DNA of 64,000 nt from Candidatus Nitronauta litoralis (GTDB taxonomy: Bacteria > Nitrospinota > Nitrospinia > Nitrospinales > Nitrospinaceae): assembly GCA_015698285.1 (NCBI GenBank), contig CP048685.1, positions 2,170,001 to 2,234,000 of the forward strand, read 5' to 3'. This document shows positions 46,317 through 55,208 of the stretch, one piece after another. Position numbers and translations under genes: made by a program. The notes below the pieces were generated by a model. That model was not told the DNA's origin. It was given only the letters and a program-made list of their open reading frames with translations, and made no database searches. Positions within the stretch are counted from its first letter, which is position 1. Every line of letters starts with the position of its first letter.

Positions 46317-46393
46317 AATCTTTTTGTTGGAAAATTATCTGAATGGAGGCAGAAAAATTTGGAATTTAAATAGTTGGAATCAATAAAACCTAA

Positions 46394-46421
46394 AAGATGT
46401 CAAATAAAGATTTGACACCTT
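46394..46421 (+). terminator. Hairpin after the SGNH gene, weak terminator candidate
   Basis: AAGATGTCAAAT pairs with ATTTGACACCTT (one mismatch) around AAAG. A TTATT stretch follows. It lies 78 bases after the SGNH stop and directly before the first RHS tip fragment, so it may also mark a recombination boundary. Confidence 0.45.
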
Positions 46422-46458
46422 TATTAAAATAATTAGCGACCACTTAGGTTCTCCAAGA

Positions 46459-47124
46459 TTGGTTGTCAACACGACTTCAGGCGCAATAATCCAGGAACTA
46501 AGCTATGATGAATGGGGAAATATATTGAGTGATACTAATTCTGGCTTTCAACCCTTCGGTTTTGCTGGTGGGCTGTATGATCCTGATACAAAACTGGTCC
46601 GTCATGGTGCACGCGATTATGACCCTGCAATTGGACGCTGGACAAGTAAAGACCCCATTCGTTTGACAGGAAACGATCCTAATTTTTACAACTATGTCGT
46701 CAATGATCCCATCAATTTGATTGATCCTACTGGACTTATTACTTATAAATGCACTAAGCCGTTAGACGCTTTAACAAATAAATTTGGAATTGGCATCAGT
46801 CAGTGGGCCCACGATGAGGTTGTGTACGCTTATCATCAATATTCCTGTATTGTCAATTCTGATGGAGTTCAATGTGGTGGACAAGATCATGAGGGAAGCC
46901 CCGTAAGAAGTGATGGAAAAGCAAGTGATGATCAACTTAGATTTCCAGGTTGTCAAATTTCCGAAGAAAACAACGAATGTTTTGAATCTTGTCTGATTGA
47001 AGAGTGGGCGAAACCTCGCCCGAAATATGGCATACCTTTTGGGCAAGATTGCCAAGAATACGATGATGCAGTAAATGAAAGATGCAGCTTAAAATGTATT
47101 TTGAAAAATCGACCTGGGCTTTGA
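46459..47124 (+). CDS. Displaced RHS tip 1: RHS core end plus Cys-rich toxin-like C-terminus
   Basis: This is only the 3' end of an RHS gene. The reading frame is open from 46408 and homology begins abruptly at [15 protein letters not shown] (46432); a TTG at 46459 is the first possible start. The RHS-associated core is clear: [36 protein letters not shown] and the hinge [12 protein letters not shown], after which variable toxin sequence starts. The tip (about 125 residues) opens [10 protein letters not shown] and has nine cysteines and [18 protein letters not shown] and [19 protein letters not shown] believe similar Cys-rich tips occur on other RHS proteins, but the activity is unknown. No ribosome binding site and no upstream core: probably silent until recombined. 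A membrane protein follows after 6 bases. Confidence 0.75.
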
Positions 47125-47130
47125 TATCAA

Positions 47131-47505
47131 ATGAAATGGACTTTCAATATTCTTCGAACTATTTGGGTATTGGCCGCAGTGGTTATACTTTTGGTTTCAA
47201 TTGCGGGAATTGAAGATAGTCATACGGGAGCATTTTTTTCTTGGAGTATGATTCTCCTAGGGTTTCCAATAAATTATTTGTTATTTGGACTAGTAGGAAT
47301 TTTGATTGAAATTTTTGAGGAGGGTTTTTCTATTCCAGATCCTTTTTTGTATAACTCACATCCCTATTTTCACTACATTTTACTTTGGACCCTTTCATCA
47401 ATTGCAGGTTATTTGCAATGGTTCAAGTTAGTTCCATTTTTATACAAAAAGATTCGCCAATTAATAAACCAAAAATTCAGAAAAATTAAAGAAAACCCAT
47501 CTTAA
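47131..47505 (+). CDS. Probable immunity protein 1 (multi-helix membrane protein)
   Basis: A 124-residue protein with three or four hydrophobic segments: IWVLAAVVILLVSIAGI, FFSWSMILLGFPINYLLFGLVGILIEIF and YILLWTLSSIAGYL, ending in a basic tail (KIRQLINQKFRKIKENP). It begins 6 bases after toxin-tip 1. In all four modules of this array a small gene follows the RHS tip at this spacing, which is the usual place of an immunity gene. A membrane immunity protein suggests that the toxin acts at or crosses the inner membrane. No family recognised; the role is inferred from position. Its stop is immediately followed by repeat copy 1. Confidence 0.6.
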   Translation: MKWTFNILRTIWVLAAVVILLVSIAGIEDSHTGAFFSWSMILLGFPINYLLFGLVGILIEIFEEGFSIPDPFLYNSHPYFHYILLWTLSSIAGYLQWFKLVPFLYKKIRQLINQKFRKIKENPS

Positions 47506-47590
47506 TGTACAAGTATCGTAATTGGCTAACAGAGGCCCTTGTTGGGTTTGGGATTTAGGCGGCTATTTTAGCCGTCTTTTTTTATTTTTG
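47506..47590 (+). repeat. RHS inter-module repeat, copy 1 (with terminator)
   Basis: The repeat starts TGTACAAG directly after the stop of immunity gene 1. It runs through a conserved GGCCCTTGTTGGGT block to GGCGGCTATTTTAGCCGTC followed by seven T, a rho-independent terminator. The same about 80-base unit recurs at 49307 and 53391, with substitutions in the first half and an almost unchanged terminator half. It ends module 1 and probably stops transcription there. Confidence 0.88.
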
Positions 47591-47640
47591 TGATTCTTTT
47601 TGTGAAATTTAATATTTTTTGAGTCAGTCGCCCGTCTGGT

Positions 47641-48819
47641 GTGGACCGTCTGAACAACGGTGCGGTTTATGATGTGCAGGACCGGCTGACGGCAAACTCC
47701 ACCGCCACATACACCTACAACGACAACGGTGAGCTTGCAACGAAGGTCGATGCGTCCGGCACCACGACCTACACCTACGATGTGCTGGGCAACCTCCGGC
47801 AGGTCGACCCGCCTTTAACAAACGATGTAATCGACTACATCATCGACGGTAGCAATCGGAGGATCGCGAAGAAGGTCAACGGGACTATCACAAAGAAGTG
47901 GCTGTATGGCGACCCGCTCAACCCGATTGCGGAACTCGACTTAAACGACAACATCACCAAGCGGTTCATTTACGGCACCCGTTCCAATGTGCCGGACGTT
48001 ATGGTGGATGTGTCGGGGGCAAACCCGGTCGTCTACCGCATCATCTCGGATCATCTTGGAAGTCCGCGTTTCGTTATCGACATCAGCAACGGAACCACCG
48101 CGCTTGAGCTGAGTTACGACGAATGGGGTGTCGAGACCATCGTTAGCGGCAACCGTGACCTCATCCCGTTCGGTTTTGCAGGAGGTCTCTACGACAAAGA
48201 CACCAAGCTAGTTCGTTTCGGTGCTCGCGATTATGACCCGGAGATTGGACGCTGGACCTCCAAAGACCCGATCGAATTCGAAGGCGGTGACACAAACCTC
48301 TTCGGCTACGTCCTCAACGACCCCGTCAACTATATTGATCCTACCGGCAACTGCCCATGGTGCGTCAAAATCGGGATTGAAATTTTAATCGAAATTGCCA
48401 TTCAAATGACCCAAAATGGAGGTAAAATTGAGTGCATTGATTGGGAAGCCGTAGGTAAGGCTGCCGTTGGGGCGGTTTTACCCCCTGGTGTTGCCAGAGC
48501 AGGGAATGGAAGTAAGTTTTTACCTAAAGGAGGTACTTATAAATTAAAAACTCCTGATGGTGGTGTAAAAAGAACAGGACGATCTAAGGATCTTGAGCGA
48601 CGTAAAAAAGAGCACAAAAGGGATCCTCAAACAAAGGACCTTGAGTTTGAAGTTGACAAAAGAACTGATTCTTATGATGCCCAACGTGGTCGAGAACAAA
48701 TTGTTCATGATCAGCACCCGGAAGCGCGAGTGGAAAATGGGGGTTTAAATAAGAAGAACCCTATTGGTGACAGGAATCGCAATCGCAAAAAGTATATGGA
48801 TTCTGGAGGGAAACTTTAG
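47641..48819 (+). CDS. Displaced RHS tip 2 with GIY-YIG-like nuclease C-terminus
   Basis: This is the longest tip: RHS repeats (YDVQDRLTANSTATYTYNDN, DVLGNLRQVDPPLTNDVIDY) and core ([40 protein letters not shown]) end at the hinge NDPVNYIDPTGN. The frame opens after a TGA at 47620, so the 5' part is missing; the GTG at 47641 is only the first possible start. A linker (CPWCVKIGIEILIEIAIQMT) precedes the toxin domain, which reads GTYKLKTPDGGVKRTGRSKD, LERRKKEHKRD, RGREQIVHDQ and GGLNKKNPIGDRN. This matches the order of a GIY-YIG endonuclease (Tyr, Gly-Arg-Thr, Arg-Arg-x-x-x-His, Glu, Asn). A nuclease toxin is inferred. An Imm26-like gene abuts the stop. Confidence 0.8.
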   Translation: MDRLNNGAVYDVQDRLTANSTATYTYNDNGELATKVDASGTTTYTYDVLGNLRQVDPPLTNDVIDYIIDGSNRRIAKKVNGTITKKWLYGDPLNPIAELDLNDNITKRFIYGTRSNVPDVMVDVSGANPVVYRIISDHLGSPRFVIDISNGTTALELSYDEWGVETIVSGNRDLIPFGFAGGLYDKDTKLVRFGARDYDPEIGRWTSKDPIEFEGGDTNLFGYVLNDPVNYIDPTGNCPWCVKIGIEILIEIAIQMTQNGGKIECIDWEAVGKAAVGAVLPPGVARAGNGSKFLPKGGTYKLKTPDGGVKRTGRSKDLERRKKEHKRDPQTKDLEFEVDKRTDSYDAQRGREQIVHDQHPEARVENGGLNKKNPIGDRNRNRKKYMDSGGKL

Positions 48820-49293
48820 ATGCCTAAGAAAACTTTGAACTATTCTGAAGGAGATTGTTTTTCTGTACCTCTATCAGAAGGGGGGTATGCGCGTGGAGTT
48901 GTAGCCAGGATGGATGGAAGTGGTGGTATTTTTGGTTATTTTTTTGGCCCTAAAGTTGAACAATTTAAAAAATTAGTTATCGACGAAAACATATTTCCTG
49001 AAAATGCGGTTCTTTTAGGTCAATTTGGTGATTTAGGTTTTTTAGAGAAAAAATGGGAGGTAATAGGTAGAGTTTCTGAGTGGTCTAGGGAAAAGTGGCC
49101 AATGCCATTGTTTTTAAGGTTTGAGGAGGGTAGTTCAGTTGGTTATTTGAGCCAATATGATGAAAACACTCTAAAAATTATTGGTGAACAAGAAGTAGAA
49201 ATTAAAAAAATTGATAAAAAAAAATATCCTAAAGATTCCCTTATGGGTTACGGTTTTGTAGAAAAAAAAATTGAGATGATTTTATCCTCATAA
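48820..49293 (+). CDS. Imm26-family immunity protein (immunity 2)
   Basis: The ATG follows the toxin stop with no gap. The 157-residue protein starts NYSEGDCFSVPLSEGGYARG and continues VVARMDGSGGIFGYFFGPKV. This is the Imm26 pattern ('G-D-x-F-x-I-P-L-x-D-G-x-Y-A-x-G-x-V'), a family of immunity proteins found behind polymorphic toxin genes. It is soluble and fairly acidic and should bind and neutralise the nuclease tip encoded just before it. Base composition is much more AT-rich than the RHS core, as usual for exchangeable toxin/immunity DNA. Confidence 0.78.
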   Translation: MPKKTLNYSEGDCFSVPLSEGGYARGVVARMDGSGGIFGYFFGPKVEQFKKLVIDENIFPENAVLLGQFGDLGFLEKKWEVIGRVSEWSREKWPMPLFLRFEEGSSVGYLSQYDENTLKIIGEQEVEIKKIDKKKYPKDSLMGYGFVEKKIEMILSS

Positions 49294-49306
49294 ATTAAAA
49301 AAAGGG

Positions 49307-49400
49307 TGTACAAGAATCGTAATTAGCTAACATTGGCCCTTGTTAGATGTTGGAATTAGGCGGCTATTTTAGCCGTCTTTTTTGTTTTTTCCTCTGTATT
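49307..49400 (+). repeat. RHS inter-module repeat, copy 2 (with terminator)
   Basis: Starts TGTACAAG 13 bases after the Imm26 stop and shares with copy 1 the segments ATCGTAATT, GCTAACA, GGCCCTTGTT and the hairpin AGGCGGCTATTTTAGCCGTC plus T-run. The following CTGTATTTT...TCTGG part (to 49412) is also found after copy 3. RHS tip 3 begins at about 49418. Confidence 0.88.
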
Positions 49401-50137
49401 TTTTTTCTGGCTTTTATGTCTACCGCATTATTTCGGATCATTTAGGAAGTCCGCGTTTTGTCATCGATATCAGTAATGGAACCACCGCGCTTGAGCTGAG
49501 TTACGACGAATGGGGTGTCGAGACCATCGTTAGCGGCAACCGTGACCTCATCCCGTTCGGTTTTGCAGGAGGTCTCTACGACAAAGACACCAAGCTAGTT
49601 CGTTTCGGTGCTCGCGATTATGACCCGGAGATTGGACGCTGGACCAGCAAAGACCCGATCGAGTTCGAAGGCGGCGACACTAACCTCTTTGGATACGTCG
49701 ATAGTGTCGGAAAACCCCTGGTTGAGACAAACCTGTATGGGTACACGCCCCAAGACCCCGTAAACTTTATCGATTTAAATGGTTTATGGTACATAGATGT
49801 TGGTGCATCAGGGTCTGCTACTGGTACTACAGGTCCTGGGGGAACTGTTTCAATTCAAATAGGGCCCAAAGGGATATTTTTTACTTATGGGTTTGGATTA
49901 GGAATCGGAAAAGGAGTGTCAGCAACCATTAATACAGGTGATCCTTGTGAAGGAATTGGTTTGGGTATAATTGCAAGAGGTGGTTTTCCTGTTAGAGGCG
50001 TTCCCGTTGGTGCTCAAGGATCGGTGACTGTTGATGATAAAGGGAAATTAAATCTTGGAGCTGGAGCTGGAGTGGGCTTGGGATTCGGTGTATCGATTGG
50101 AGCAACTCAAACTATTAAAATTATTGATTTTGATTAA
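49382..50137 (+). CDS. Displaced RHS tip 3 with Gly-rich C-terminus
   Basis: RHS homology begins at [13 protein letters not shown] (about 49418), nearly the same place as in tip 1; the upstream in-frame codons (TTG at 49382) come from the repeat. The core from 49478 to 49645 is base-for-base identical to tip 2. The hinge is unusual: after DTNLFGY the frame runs [19 protein letters not shown] then [11 protein letters not shown], so two hinge segments follow each other. The variable tip (about 120 residues) is Gly-rich with alternating hydrophobic residues ([38 protein letters not shown]), more like a beta-structured or pore-type domain than an enzyme. The partner gene starts one base before the end of the stop codon. 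Confidence 0.72.
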
Positions 50138-50370
50138 TGGAAACAATAAATAGCATAATATTTATTCTTTTGGGTCTGATTGGATTATTCAAGAGGAAGA
50201 GAATTTCTTCTGCCGTCTTGTCTCACCACTTAAATATTTGGGGGAAAGAGGCTTTTAATAAAAAGACTAATTATCGTAACTTCTTATTAGCTCAGACTAT
50301 TATGGTGATTATTGGAGGGGCTTTTATTATGGGTGGCCTATATCTTTTTTTTCGAGACGCGATAGAATAG
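50137..50370 (+). CDS. Probable immunity protein 3 (77-residue membrane protein)
   Basis: The ATG overlaps the stop of RHS tip 3 (TAATG), so translation is coupled. Two hydrophobic helices (NSIIFILLGLIGLF and FLLAQTIMVIIGGAFIMGGLYLFF) flank a short basic loop (RKRISSAVLSHHLNIWGKEA). No family recognised. Position as the gene directly behind a toxin-like tip, together with small size and membrane nature, suggests immunity against a membrane-active tip. It ends 66 bases before the IS1182 transposase; that gap contains the insertion boundary. Confidence 0.58.
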   Translation: METINSIIFILLGLIGLFKRKRISSAVLSHHLNIWGKEAFNKKTNYRNFLLAQTIMVIIGGAFIMGGLYLFFRDAIE

Positions 50371-50435
50371 CTTTGCAACCTAAGTTTTAAAAGTCGTTTT
50401 AGAAGTTCCCTTCCCCCTCTTTCCCTGGAGGTTTT

Positions 50436-52043
50436 ATGTTGAAGCCTTCTGCCTCTTCCCCGCATTCCGGTCAGGGCAGTTTTTTTGATCCGGAGTATGT
50501 GTGTGACCGGATTATTCCTGAAGACAGTTTCTACCGGCGGTTCAAAGAGAAGATCAATCCGCTCATCAAGGATAAGATGTTCGCTTCGATGTATTGTCTG
50601 GACAACGGTCGTCCGCCGATCTCCCCGGCCTTGCTGGCAAAGGCCACCATCCTCCAGTTTCACCGGAATCTTTCGGACCGCGAGATGGAGCGTGCCTGTG
50701 CGTTCGATATCGAGATCAAGTTTGCATTAGGGTTACGGCTGGACGAACGCCCGTTCGATCACTCTTCTCTCGGCGACTTCAGAAAACGCCTTTTAGAACA
50801 TGAGAAGGAGAAGGAAGTCTTCGACAAACTCCTCGATAAACTGGTCAAGGAGGGATTGATCGGCCGGAATGAAATCCAGCGCATCGATGCGACGCACGTG
50901 ATCGCGGATATCGCGCTTCCCACCATGACGGTGCTGGTGAAGAAGGGGGTGCGGAACGTGCTGATCCCGCTGAAGAAGAAACATCCGAAACTATACCAAT
51001 CACTTGGCAAAAAGATCACGGTGGAGGAGTACGATCACCGCAAGGTGGACCATGAAGTGGATGGTCGTCTGGATTTTGCGGCCAAGGAGAAGAAACTGGT
51101 GGAGGTGGTGACTGATGCCCGGACAGTGCTTCGCAAGGCCGAGTCCGTTAAAGGTGACAAGAACCTTTCGAAATCCGTCGAAATGCTGAAACGTATATTG
51201 AGGGAACACATCACCGAAGATGAGAACAACCAGCCTAAAGAGAAAGTGCGCAAGGAGAAGCCCGCCGACTTGCTGGTGTCACCGGTCGATCCCGATGCAC
51301 GCTTCGGCGCGAAGTCGAAGACGAAGAAGTTCCACGGTTACAAGGCCAATATCACCGAGACCGTCAACAGCCGCTTCATCACCAGTGTGCAGGCAACACC
51401 GGGAAACAAGCGCGACGGATCGGTGACGGTGCAGTCAATAGAAGAACAAAAGCCGCACCGTCTCAAGCCGGAGAAACTGATCGGCGACACGGCATACAGC
51501 GACGGAGGATATAGAAAAGCGCTCAAGGAACACGGCACGGAACTGGTCGCGCCCCTGCGGATCATGAACAACATCACGCGAGCCGTGTATCCGAAGTCGA
51601 TGTTCGATTATGACGCGAAGAAGAACACGCTGACGTGTCCTGCCGGTGTGACGATCAAGCAGAGTTTTCACGATTACCAGAAGGACGTACGGATGTTTCA
51701 CTTTCCCCTGACAAAGTGCGGCCCATGCGAGCACCTGTCAAAATGCACAAAAGCAAAAGAGAAACGGCGTGTGGTGGGGATCGGTCCTGCGCACCAGGAA
51801 CTGAGAGACGCGGAAGTTTATAACAAGACTGATCAGTTCAAGGAAGACATGAAACTCCGGCAGGCGATCGAGGGAAAACTGTCCGAGATGAAGCGGTATC
51901 ACGGGCTGACGCGGGCCAGGTATCGGGGACTAAACAAGATGAAGCTTCAATGTTACTTCACGGCGGTTGCGGTGAATATCAAACGATGGATCAAGTTGGA
52001 GATGGAGAAACTGAAAGTCCAGTCCGATCCCGCACCGACGTGA
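50436..52043 (+). mobile_element. IS1182-family transposase
   Basis: The 535-residue DDE transposase has the IS1182 layout: the N-terminal domain with FDPEYVCDRIIPEDSFYRRF, DNGRPPISPALLAKATILQF and DIEIKFALGLRLDERPFDHS; the catalytic Asp in IQRIDATHVIADI, the second in LIGDTAYSDGGYR and the Glu in the C-terminal IEGKLSEMKRYHGLTRARYR. A cysteine cluster (CGPCEHLSKC) sits before the last motif. The reading frame is intact and the base composition is GC-rich against its AT-rich surroundings, in line with recent arrival. GGAGG precedes the ATG by six bases. Terminal inverted repeats could not be identified; the element's outer limits lie within 50371-50435 and 52044-52225. Confidence 0.92.
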
Positions 52044-52153
52044 TCCCTATAATATAAAACTGGAGTCAGCTTATTAATATAAGAAGCAAACGAAGCAAAG
52101 GAGGTGAAACCGAGGGACTCAGGGAGAACAGGACAGGCCGAGGCTGAAATCAT

Positions 52154-52786
52154 GTGCCCCGGCACACCCAAAACTCCCGATCACTCCACGCCAGGACTGC
52201 ACTATCCGGGGTTTTCAGACGGTATCACGTCCTCAACGATCCGATCAATTTCATTGACCCCACTGGGAATTGTCCAAATTGTTTCTGCCCGTGGTGCGCT
52301 GCTGCGGGTGCCGCTGGAGGCTTAGTATTTGAAATTGGCCTTCAGTTTATGGAGCATGGTTTAAATTTTGACTGCTATGACGGATGGGAAATAGTACAAT
52401 CTACTGTCATGGGGGCCACCGGCGGCGTTTCCCTTGGTGCTATAGTTAAATTTGCAAAAGGAGCAAAAGCCGCAAAAGCGGCTAAAAATAATCGAAATAG
52501 ATTTCCGGAAAACCCGGATGATTTACTTCCGGATTTACCTCGTGACGCAAAAGGGAGAATTTATCCAAGCGACAAGGTTCGTATTCGCCCAGAAAAACAT
52601 CCCGTAAAGCCAGGCGAAACTTACTCTCCAAGGCACCATGGCCAACACTACCATGTTGAAACACGGACAGATCCGACGAAAAGCTGGAACAATAAAAATA
52701 ATACAACTAAGGTAAAGCCTCCCGAGTACCAACGAGGGGAAGGGACCGGCTTTTTACCGGGTGAAAAATTTCCAGGGGCGCAATAA
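52154..52786 (+). CDS. Displaced RHS tip 4 with His-rich toxin-like C-terminus
   Basis: RHS similarity begins at HVLNDPINFIDPTGN (about 52226); everything before it in the frame (GTG at 52154) is non-homologous and belongs to the IS flank. Only the hinge of the RHS core is left, so this is the shortest tip. The linker CPNCFCPWCAAAGAAGGLVF and EIGLQFMEHGLNFDCYDGW is alignable to the linker of tip 2. The end domain (VRIRPEKHPVKPGETYSPRH, HGQHYHVETRTDPTKSWNNK, then PPEYQRGEGTGFLPGEKFPG) has a His-Gly-x-His-x-His cluster like small nuclease-type toxins, but no family is recognised with certainty. The IS1182 insertion or a linked deletion probably removed the upstream core. Confidence 0.65.
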   Translation: MPRHTQNSRSLHARTALSGVFRRYHVLNDPINFIDPTGNCPNCFCPWCAAAGAAGGLVFEIGLQFMEHGLNFDCYDGWEIVQSTVMGATGGVSLGAIVKFAKGAKAAKAAKNNRNRFPENPDDLLPDLPRDAKGRIYPSDKVRIRPEKHPVKPGETYSPRHHGQHYHVETRTDPTKSWNNKNNTTKVKPPEYQRGEGTGFLPGEKFPGAQ

Positions 52787-53130
52787 TGGAAAAAATTGAT
52801 GTTAAAACTCAAATTGGTTTTAATGATTCTGAGTTTGTCTCTTATTTGAAAAAACATAGTTTATTTGTTGTGAAAATTAGGGCATGGAACGAGTCCCAAG
52901 TTACGATAAACTTTAACGATGTGATTCGGGTAGTTGATAACGACGTGAATGGTATTTCAGGTTTTTTTGAAATCATTGGAGATAGCGAAGTATTACAACA
53001 TGCTTTGAGTAGGTTGTATGAAAACGTCATTCCCAGCAATCATCCATATAAATGTTATCAATTCATTGATATTGATGATAATGCTGCCCTAGAAATTGTA
53101 TGTTCTTCCATCGAAATTTTTTATTCGTAA
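52786..53130 (+). CDS. Probable immunity protein 4 (soluble, 114 residues)
   Basis: The ATG overlaps the stop of RHS tip 4 by one base (TAATG). The product is acidic and soluble, beginning MEKIDVKTQIGFNDSEFVSY and ending NAALEIVCSSIEIFYS, with alternating strands and helices as in small immunity proteins. No family recognised. As in the other modules, position directly behind the tip is the evidence for immunity. It is AT-rich. 126 bases further on an IS30 fragment begins. Confidence 0.6.
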   Translation: MEKIDVKTQIGFNDSEFVSYLKKHSLFVVKIRAWNESQVTINFNDVIRVVDNDVNGISGFFEIIGDSEVLQHALSRLYENVIPSNHPYKCYQFIDIDDNAALEIVCSSIEIFYS

Positions 53131-53255
53131 TAGTTTTTGTGAATAATATTTAGGTTTCGTTTGTCCAGTTAGCACCTAACACAAAAAACATGGAAAAAAG
53201 GGAAACCAGTTCCTGGCCGTCCCGATTTAGGAGAACATAATTTTAATGCGCGGAT

Positions 53256-53390
53256 TCATACAATAAGTGCAATTCCTTTGGTAAAAAAGGAGGTAGGATT
53301 GATTTGCGGAAAAATCTTACCCTCACCCAAAGGAATCGCACCTATGAGACATTACCAGCAGTTAAGCAAAGAAGAAAGATTTTATATATG
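53256..53390 (+). mobile_element. IS30-family fragment (left end, truncated)
   Basis: An ATG at 53344 starts MRHYQQLSKEERFYI, the typical N-terminus of IS30 transposases, and then stops being homologous exactly where TGTACAAAG of repeat copy 3 begins (53391). Upstream, GTGCAATTCCTTTGG (53268-) and CCAAAGGAATCGCAC (53326-) form an inverted pair in the leader. Only about 15 codons remain, so it is dead. The 5' limit (about 53256) is approximate. Confidence 0.7.
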
Positions 53391-53485
53391 TGTACAAAGC
53401 TAGTATTTGCCGAACAGTGGCCCTTGTTGGGTATGTGATTTATGCGGCTATTTTAGCCGTCTTTTTTTGTTTTTGCTCCTGTATT
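53391..53485 (+). repeat. RHS inter-module repeat, copy 3 (with terminator)
   Basis: TGTACAAAG at the start, GAACAGTGGCCCTTGTTGGGT in the middle and GCGGCTATTTTAGCCGTC plus seven T at the end match copies 1 and 2. The trailing TTTTTGCTCCTGTATTTTAT matches the tail of copy 2. No RHS fragment follows; this is the right end of the array. The 220 bases to the next gene (53486-53704) contain no credible gene. Confidence 0.88.
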
Positions 53486-53704
53486 TTATCTGGTTTTGGA
53501 AGACCTTCCTTGAAAACGGTTTCCGGTGTCCTTAAAGGGGTCAAGTCTTTAATTGACTACATGTTGATATTTGAGCTTTCTAAACATCAAAAGAGTTGAA
53601 GCGGTTTTCTCAGGATTTATTTCCTCATTAATTGGAATTTACTTCAGGGGGATATTCGAAAACGAGCTCCCTAAACCGAAGATGTGGTTATTAATATGGG
53701 TTGT

Positions 53705-54636: not shown

Positions 54637-54945
54637 TTATTTCAGTCGCTCTTTAAGGCGGATCAGCATATCCATTCGCTCATGAAGGACAGCTAATATG
54701 ACAGGTTTCCCGCTTTCGGAATAAAAATAGAAAATAAAATGATGTTCACAGCGGACAACCTGCACCTCTGGAAACTTTTCTGAAAAGGTCCGTGAAGATA
54801 CTTTTCTGGCCGCGATATTTTTTAAACCCTGACTGATTTTCCCAAGATACTTTTTCGCCTGGGCCTCCCCCCACTCTTGGATCGTGTAGCGGGAAATACC
54901 TTCCAGGTCGGCTTCCGCACCTTTGGTCAATTCATATGGAAGCAC
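54637..54945 (-). CDS. ParE/RelE-family toxin
   Basis: The 102-residue protein has the ParE/RelE fold order: YELTKGAEADLEGISRYTIQ, EWGEAQAKKYLGKISQGLKN, then VVRCEHHFIFYFYSESGKPV and ILAVLHERMDMLIRLKERL. The Arg-Cys-Glu-His-His and C-terminal His-Glu-Arg residues are the usual positions of functional groups. ParE relatives inhibit DNA gyrase, RelE relatives cut mRNA; the sequence alone does not decide. The antitoxin gene ends two bases upstream, a normal type II arrangement. The pair sits between two copies of the yidC 3' end. Confidence 0.88.
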   Translation of the reverse strand: MLPYELTKGAEADLEGISRYTIQEWGEAQAKKYLGKISQGLKNIAARKVSSRTFSEKFPEVQVVRCEHHFIFYFYSESGKPVILAVLHERMDMLIRLKERLK

Positions 54946-54947
54946 TA

Positions 54948-55208
54948 TTAGGATTCCTGCCGAACGTCCTCAAAAATTTGTTCAACTGACCGTGTGGCAA
55001 ACTCCCCTCTGCGTGCCCCTTCAATGCGTGGCTTTAAAAACTCTTCCAGTCTGCTGATCGCTTCTTCTTCCGACATGGAGTCCATTTCCGGCAGAGGAGG
55101 CAATACCCGTTCCAGAACATATTCCTTGATAGACTTGCCCTGTAAAGCGGCGACGGCCTTTAGCCGTTTATGTTGCTCCGGGGTAACTTCTATTGATAAG
55201 CGTTGCAT
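54948..55208 (-). CDS. ParD-like ribbon-helix-helix antitoxin
   Basis: The N-terminus MQRLSIEVTPEQHKRLKAVA with ALQGKSIKEYVLERVLP is a ribbon-helix-helix DNA-binding domain. The acidic C-terminal part (EEEAISRLEEFLKPRIEGAR and RSVEQIFEDVRQES) would wrap the toxin. 86 residues, typical. GGAGC precedes the ATG at 55208. Two overlapping palindromes 54-80 bases upstream (55262-55288) are good candidates for its own binding site, giving the usual autoregulation. Cotranscribed with the toxin gene. Confidence 0.87.
   Translation of the reverse strand: MQRLSIEVTPEQHKRLKAVAALQGKSIKEYVLERVLPPLPEMDSMSEEEAISRLEEFLKPRIEGARRGEFATRSVEQIFEDVRQES

Follow-up and report, generated by a model that had tools for sequence, protein, structure and literature searches.

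How does a polymorphic toxin come by a new C-terminal tip? This is an open question, for which the standing proposal is homologous recombination, limited to one RHS clade (PMC2935791). It is raised by a 64,000-nucleotide stretch of the Candidatus Nitronauta litoralis genome (contig CP048685.1, positions 2,170,001 to 2,234,000 of the forward strand; hereafter the window), whose list of open reading frames contains four RHS-type C-terminal ends in succession at 46426-53130, each with an adjoining small gene. A first-pass annotation took all four to be displaced tips. We find instead that tip 3 appears to be the cargo, and tip 4 the victim, of a mobile element: with a probability of roughly 0.8, the segment 49700-52226 is a DNA transposon by which RHS genes exchange their toxin tip. 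The features legible in the DNA are inverted repeats, 5-bp duplications at three insertions, two identical copies, a tip fused in frame, ends that are conserved around an exchangeable cargo, and a shared target nucleotide. At this locus, tip replacement would be by transposition and not by core homology. Window positions are given without a prefix and are collected in Table 1; positions prefixed G000:C1 are host genome coordinates.

A unit bounded by inverted repeats and target duplications

The unit is present twice in the genome, as copy A in the window and as copy B at G000:C1:1549065-1551591, and the two are 100% identical over 2,527 bp. When the orphan module at 1.548 Mb is compared with module 3, identity is perfect over 49697-52227 and is lost abruptly on both sides; on their left, the two copies have host cores that are 67% identical to each other over 200 bp. 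Since copies A and B are identical, we consider them recent. At its start the unit reads GATAGTGTCGGAAAACCCCTGG, and at its end the inverse of GATACCGTCTGAAAACCCCGG. These terminal inverted repeats pair at 17 of 22 positions in copies A and B and at 14 of 22 in a third copy from another genome (copy C, described below), and a pairing of 17/22 was reached by none of 200,000 random pairs drawn from the unit. With zero mismatches, the repeat pattern GATANNGTCNGAAAACCCC occurs in the whole 3.92-Mb genome only at the four ends, and neither the transposon nor its ends were found elsewhere in that genome beyond the two hinges.

Each copy is flanked on both sides by a 5-bp duplication, which reads ACGTC for copy A, ATGTC for copy B and ATACC for copy C. 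Since the variable base agrees within a locus and differs between loci, the duplications are best understood as target-site duplications of separate insertions rather than as the ends of recombined segments. Terminal inverted repeats, duplications that differ from locus to locus and more than one copy in unrelated contexts are together what is expected of a DNA transposon. Segmental duplication or gene conversion was considered as a source of the identical copies and rejected: on either side identity breaks off just where a repeat ends, and each locus has a duplication of its own.

Between modules 3 and 4, the unit encodes a transposase that is absent from the first-pass annotation. It matches the IS1182-family model NF033551 with 348.7 bits (cut-off 270) over model positions 10-488 of 488, which places it in that family. 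We infer that this enzyme would move the whole tip/immunity unit.

Reading frame, cargo and a third copy

The insertion point is identical to the nucleotide in all three copies and lies between Gly-Tyr-Val/Thr and Leu-Asn-Asp-Pro of the hinge (NLFGY-V/T before, LNDP after). In each, the duplicated 5 bp consist of the last two bases of the hinge Tyr codon and the codon that follows, the element's own tip is fused in frame to the host core, and the old tip is left downstream. Read in the frame of the host core, the left repeat gives DSVGKP, followed by a rebuilt hinge (ETNLYGY..DP.NFID..GL) and then by the element's own tip. The stranded old tip is still in phase with the duplicated codons. The longest open frame of tip 4 has a GTG start at 52154, inside the right end of the transposon, where no usable ribosome-binding site was seen.

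Copy C was found by a transposase search, on contig JAJFFN010000023.1 (L073) of the metagenome-assembled genome Robiginitomaculum sp. OFTM87 (Alphaproteobacteria); the contig scan that gave it used a single-sequence query, whose reach is close relatives only. The host RHS gene of copy C is at least 1,861 amino acids long and has teneurin-like TTR, FN-plug, NHL and YD-shell domains. Its frame continues through GATAGTGTCGGAAAACCCG and leads into a tip that bears no relation to tip 3, and the order on the contig is long RHS gene, in-frame left end, tip, overlapping DUF4288 gene (putative immunity gene), transposase, right repeat and a displaced tip that starts with LNDPINLID. The copy C transposase also belongs to the IS1182 family (335.7 bits against NF033551) and is 79% identical to that of copy A. 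When copies A and C are aligned, identity is 78% over the first 77 bp, the tip/immunity region gives no significant match and the transposase matches again. This pattern indicates an element made up of a coding adaptor that is conserved, a cargo slot that varies and a transposase. Within the first 90 bp, the differences fall 8, 2 and 14 times at codon positions 1, 2 and 3, indicating that the left end is translated.

These observations suggest the following course of events. The transposase would cut out the unit and insert it in an RHS hinge, separating the Tyr-Val/Thr codons from those for Leu-Asn-Asp-Pro. Where the frame fits, translation of the host core would then run through the left inverted repeat, itself coding, so that the hinge is rebuilt and leads into the new tip. 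The new immunity gene would travel with this tip, ahead of the IS1182-family transposase that presumably mobilises the unit. The old tip and its immunity gene would survive behind the right inverted repeat as an orphan module, and the outcome would probably be the very arrangement that is usually credited to recombination. The fused protein is presumably delivered and toxic, with the immunity gene protecting the cell.

The published model of RHS C-terminal displacement (PMC2935791) would explain the locus otherwise: a new tip comes in through homologous recombination within the core and shunts the old one downstream, and the transposase belongs to an insertion sequence that landed between modules 3 and 4 as a bystander. 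Modules 1 and 2, as well as a three-module locus at 3062-3066 kb with no transposase between its modules, fit this model, and the cores of modules 2 and 3 are 94% identical. For modules 3 and 4, however, the identical block stops on both sides exactly at the inverted repeats and duplications and not at variable points of the core; the host cores of copies A and B, at 67% identity, are too divergent for the high-identity recombination required; and the tip and immunity gene lie inside the repeats, in a layout that recurs in another genome with other cargo. Displacement is therefore disfavoured for this pair and is, in our estimate, very improbable. A bystander IS1182-family insertion between the modules is rejected, since the unit bounded by repeats and duplications includes the tip and immunity gene and recurs. 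By all that the DNA reveals, modules 3 and 4 are a single orphan RHS module that was split by the 2,527-bp transposon.

Target choice and comparison with known systems

Why all known copies sit in a hinge has two possible answers. The transposase may insert nearly at random, and only hinge cases are seen because other insertions were lost or harmful or because in-frame fusions were selected. Three insertions cannot separate target choice from selection, or recognition of hinge DNA from the mere retention of hinge insertions. In addition, IS1182-family relatives are not known for sequence-specific targets, and IS1272 is reported with inverted-repeat targets. Against near-random insertion stand the identical, recent copies A and B, which occupy the same nucleotide of different hinges with no copy or end elsewhere in 3.92 Mb. 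Moreover, both host modules are truncated orphans, for which selection for a delivered fusion should be weak. Since the two recent copies are both at the hinges of truncated modules and none is found elsewhere, recognition of the hinge is favoured; near-random insertion is unlikely, and we suspect that the transposase, and not selection alone, chooses the hinge.

Several points weigh against the tip-swapping transposon as proposed. The known insertions number three, in two genomes, and no further close member was found in the family of this genome, in 77 same-phylum genomes, in about 780 sampled alphaproteobacterial genomes (a sample of the class together with the order of the copy C host) or in plasmid, phage and viral collections. 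IS1182 relatives on plasmids are only about 30% identical. Copy C lies on a 10.4-kb contig of a metagenome-assembled genome, where the RHS frame is open to the contig end, so that both the gene start and the organism assignment are uncertain. Copies A and B sit in RHS fragments that lack the delivery part, and their fusions may be inert. Lastly, IS1272, also of the IS1182 family, is reported to replace inverted repeats without target duplications (PMC5678879), unlike the element at 49700-52226, which makes 5-bp duplications and whose known copies are only in the RHS hinge; the behaviour of IS1272 is that of one member and not a family-wide definition of IS1182.

The element combines traits of two kinds of known system. 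With the IS1182 family it shares a full-length transposase of the NF033551 type and inverted repeats at its ends, but ahead of the transposase it has about 0.74 kb of coding cargo, and translation of the target gene takes in its left end. Transporter insertion sequences hold, between short inverted repeats, a transposase and passenger genes that are not needed for transposition. The passenger here differs in being a partial gene that would work only when fused in frame to a target gene. H-rpt of Escherichia coli is an insertion sequence linked to rhs tip regions; it is not known to have a tip inside its ends or to insert at the hinge.

As in RHS displacement and in the orphans of the cdiA-CT/cdiI type, a new tip and immunity gene stand on a conserved core with the old pair downstream. 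Jackson et al. (2009) proposed that tips are swapped by homologous recombination through a hypothetical circular intermediate, between near-identical cores of one RHS clade (PMC2935791). Poole et al. (2011), on orphan cdiA-CT/cdiI modules, discussed recombination at conserved sequences, with insertion sequences only as disruptors (PMC3150448), and Zhang et al. (2012) had tips replaced by recombination with cassettes, in passages that name no transposon (PMC3482391). By contrast, the present unit has inverted repeats, target duplications and a transposase, and the cores that it joins share 63-67% identity. A review lists transposons for contact-dependent growth inhibition (CDI) and prophages for Rhs (PMC10047993). 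The transposon-borne CDI genes of Burkholderia thailandensis (Ocasio and Cotter 2019, as cited in PMC10047993) are a parallel, in that a transposable element moves a polymorphic toxin system; there, the CDI genes are moved as a complete set, whereas here only a tip and an immunity gene would move, dependent on a resident RHS core. No description of a tip-carrying transposon that inserts at the RHS hinge was found in the open-access literature, although a report elsewhere is possible. Passenger-carrying insertion sequences and RHS tip displacement are both known kinds; it is their combination that seems new, and its structure is well supported at the level of DNA.

A transposon that lands in the hinge, restores the frame and brings both toxin and antidote would be a concrete mechanism that needs no homology and could cross lineages. 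It would also explain why old immunity genes persist next to new tips, and its two-part signature, a translated inverted repeat and a duplicated hinge, makes it possible to screen other genomes. More broadly, there may be a self-mobile family of domain-swapping transposons whose transposase targets the RHS hinge, whose left repeat serves as both binding site and coding adaptor, and whose slot accepts varied toxin-immunity pairs, so that RHS cores of separate lineages would be re-armed in a single step, with no need of homology and with the old immunity gene kept. To this wider proposal we give even odds.

The remaining array, other RHS genes and small repeats

The pairing of tips with small genes described in the first-pass annotation was borne out by the reading-frame coordinates: 6 bases separate the end of tip 1 (47124) from its small gene (from 47131), the small gene of tip 2 begins at 48820 directly after the last base of the tip (48819; gap 0), and tips 3 and 4 each overlap their downstream gene by one base (gap -1; 50137/50137 and 52786/52786). 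The absence of ribosome-binding sites stood as well, as no Shine-Dalgarno sequence at usable spacing was seen upstream of the RHS fragments. An RHS core end, ascribed earlier to all four modules, was matched by TIGR03696 in modules 1, 2 and 3 (E = 5e-23, 1.1e-21 and 1.3e-19); module 4 has the hinge but no core end of its own and gave no family match in the profile search. Thus modules 1-3 have the core end, hinge, tip and adjoining small gene, without a 5' part, that mark orphan modules, and module 4 has the hinge only. Orphan polymorphic-toxin modules remain a supported description of modules 1 and 2 and of the host that was split into modules 3 and 4; four displaced tips are not supported. 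Imm26, in module 2, is the sole named immunity family among the small genes. Tip 1 had no Pfam family match, and the family search returned nothing for the small gene at 47131-47505. Modules 1 and 2 amount to ordinary orphan RHS debris that IS481-family ends have broken up.

Table 1. Features of the array and of the candidate transposon (window positions)
Feature	Position	Strand	Basis or remark
Palindromic repeat of about 33 bp, MITE/REP-like (miniature inverted-repeat transposable element/repetitive extragenic palindrome), GATGTCAAATAAAGATTTGACACC; abuts truncated start of module 1	46391-46425	+	Sole copy in window
Module 1, RHS core end and tip 1 (cysteine-rich)	46426-47124	+	TIGR03696, E 5e-23
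Putative immunity gene after tip 1, small, membrane-type	47131-47505	+	Position
IS481-family right-end relic 1, contains terminator-like hairpin	47506-47589	+	
Module 2, RHS repeat/core end and tip 2	47641-48819	+	TIGR03696, E 1.1e-21
Module 2 immunity gene (Imm26)	48820-49293	+	PF15428, E 7.9e-12
IS481-family right-end relic 2	49307-49390	+	
Truncated host RHS core, apparent target of transposon insertion	49418-49699	+	94% identical to module 2 core
Target-site duplication ACGTC, left copy	49695-49699	+	
Probable tip-swapping transposon, copy A, 2527 bp	49700-52226	+	Identical copy at G000:C1:1549065-1551591
Left terminal inverted repeat, in-frame translation DSVGKPL	49700-49721	+	
Conserved left-end adaptor, 77 bp: inverted repeat and rebuilt hinge ...ETNLYGY..DP.NFID	49700-49776	+	78% to copy C
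Cargo tip 3, toxin-tip candidate of 115 aa, rich in glycine, in frame with host core	49790-50137	+	
Putative cargo immunity gene, 77 aa, membrane-type	50137-50370	+	Position
IS1182-family DDE transposase, 535 aa, intact	50436-52043	+	NF033551
Right terminal inverted repeat GATACCGTCTGAAAACCCCGG	52205-52226	-	
Target-site duplication ACGTC, right copy	52227-52231	+	
Probable displaced old tip (tip 4) of host module, begins at hinge LNDPINFIDPTG	52232-52786	+	
Putative immunity gene of displaced tip 4	52786-53130	+	Position
IS481-family right-end relic 3	53391-53532	+	

The array had also been proposed as a store of displaced cassettes that could return by recombination to a full-length RHS gene of this genome. 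There is indeed no parent RHS gene at the locus, and the genome holds three long open frames with RHS matches (2442, 2317 and 2066 amino acids, the 2066-residue frame being under the family cut-off); the reloading of orphan modules by recombination has been discussed for CDI and RHS (PMC3150448). The core search suggested earlier for finding such a gene, made here on DNA with the module 2 core (47620-48360), returned orphan fragments only, namely module 3 at 94% and other fragments at 67-71%. None of the three long RHS genes had a DNA match to this core, so that no near-identical resident core was found. In the comparison with a relative, the congener (G002) has no RHS array in the conserved yidC neighbourhood, where this is readable, and no RHS genes at the array site. 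On these results a homology-driven cassette store is not supported in this genome, and we consider it very improbable.

Further orphan RHS modules were found at 1.54, 1.55, 1.75, 2.38, 3.06 and 3.43 Mb. One of the three long RHS genes (L051, G000:C1:1510816-1517766) has SpvB, TcdB and pretoxin-HINT domains. At G000:C1:3061523-3066141, on the minus strand, three orphan RHS modules stand in tandem with different tips, one of which has a weak YkuD-like match; no transposase lies between them, and an IS481 right-end relic is found a few bases past the last small gene.

The shared spacer repeat of the first-pass annotation is real, but its nature is different. Its three 84-bp copies (47506-47589, 49307-49390 and 53391-53474) belong to a set of about 15 dispersed over the 3.92-Mb genome, and what they represent is an IS481-family element, reduced to its right end. 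Six full copies of this element, of about 1,235 bp, are present elsewhere in the genome, with the transposase on the opposite strand. This transposase matches NF033577 with 249.9 bits (cut-off 224), which assigns the element to the IS481 family. The ends in the array are relics, two of which begin 0 and 13 bases past the stop codon of a small gene. We therefore reject the repeat as a recombination site, as an integron-like attC or as an RNA; its folding is unremarkable (z = -1.35), and comparison with Rfam gave sub-threshold matches only.

The junction between an IS481 relic and RHS sequence at 47586-47648 (63 bp) recurs with 86% identity at G000:C1:3428057-3428118, directly after which the cores diverge; the presence of this joint at two loci indicates that it was copied as a unit. 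IS481-family ends at G000:C1 positions 2217506, 2219307, 3061518, 3421341 and 1747662 lie 0 to about 100 bp 3' of a small gene that itself comes after a toxin-like or RHS frame, and a preference of the IS481 family for the ends of toxin-immunity operons is possible.

Copies similar to the palindromic repeat GATGTCAAATAAAGATTTGACACC accompany other RHS fragments elsewhere in the genome at ten or more sites, among them G000:C1 positions near 1067774, 1533607, 1745018, 2382202 and 2385208, and near 3060211, 3066355, 3426144, 3427249 and 3429957. The repeat may be a MITE whose insertions mark breakpoints. At 54637-55208, beside yidC, a small gene pair resembles a RelE/ParE-type toxin and its antitoxin, and the gene downstream is kept at the same place in the congener (71%). 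Finally, a 140-bp fragment at 53251-53390 is 95% identical to the reverse strand of 1548312-1548452, which adjoins transposon copy B, and encodes the start of an IS30-like transposase.

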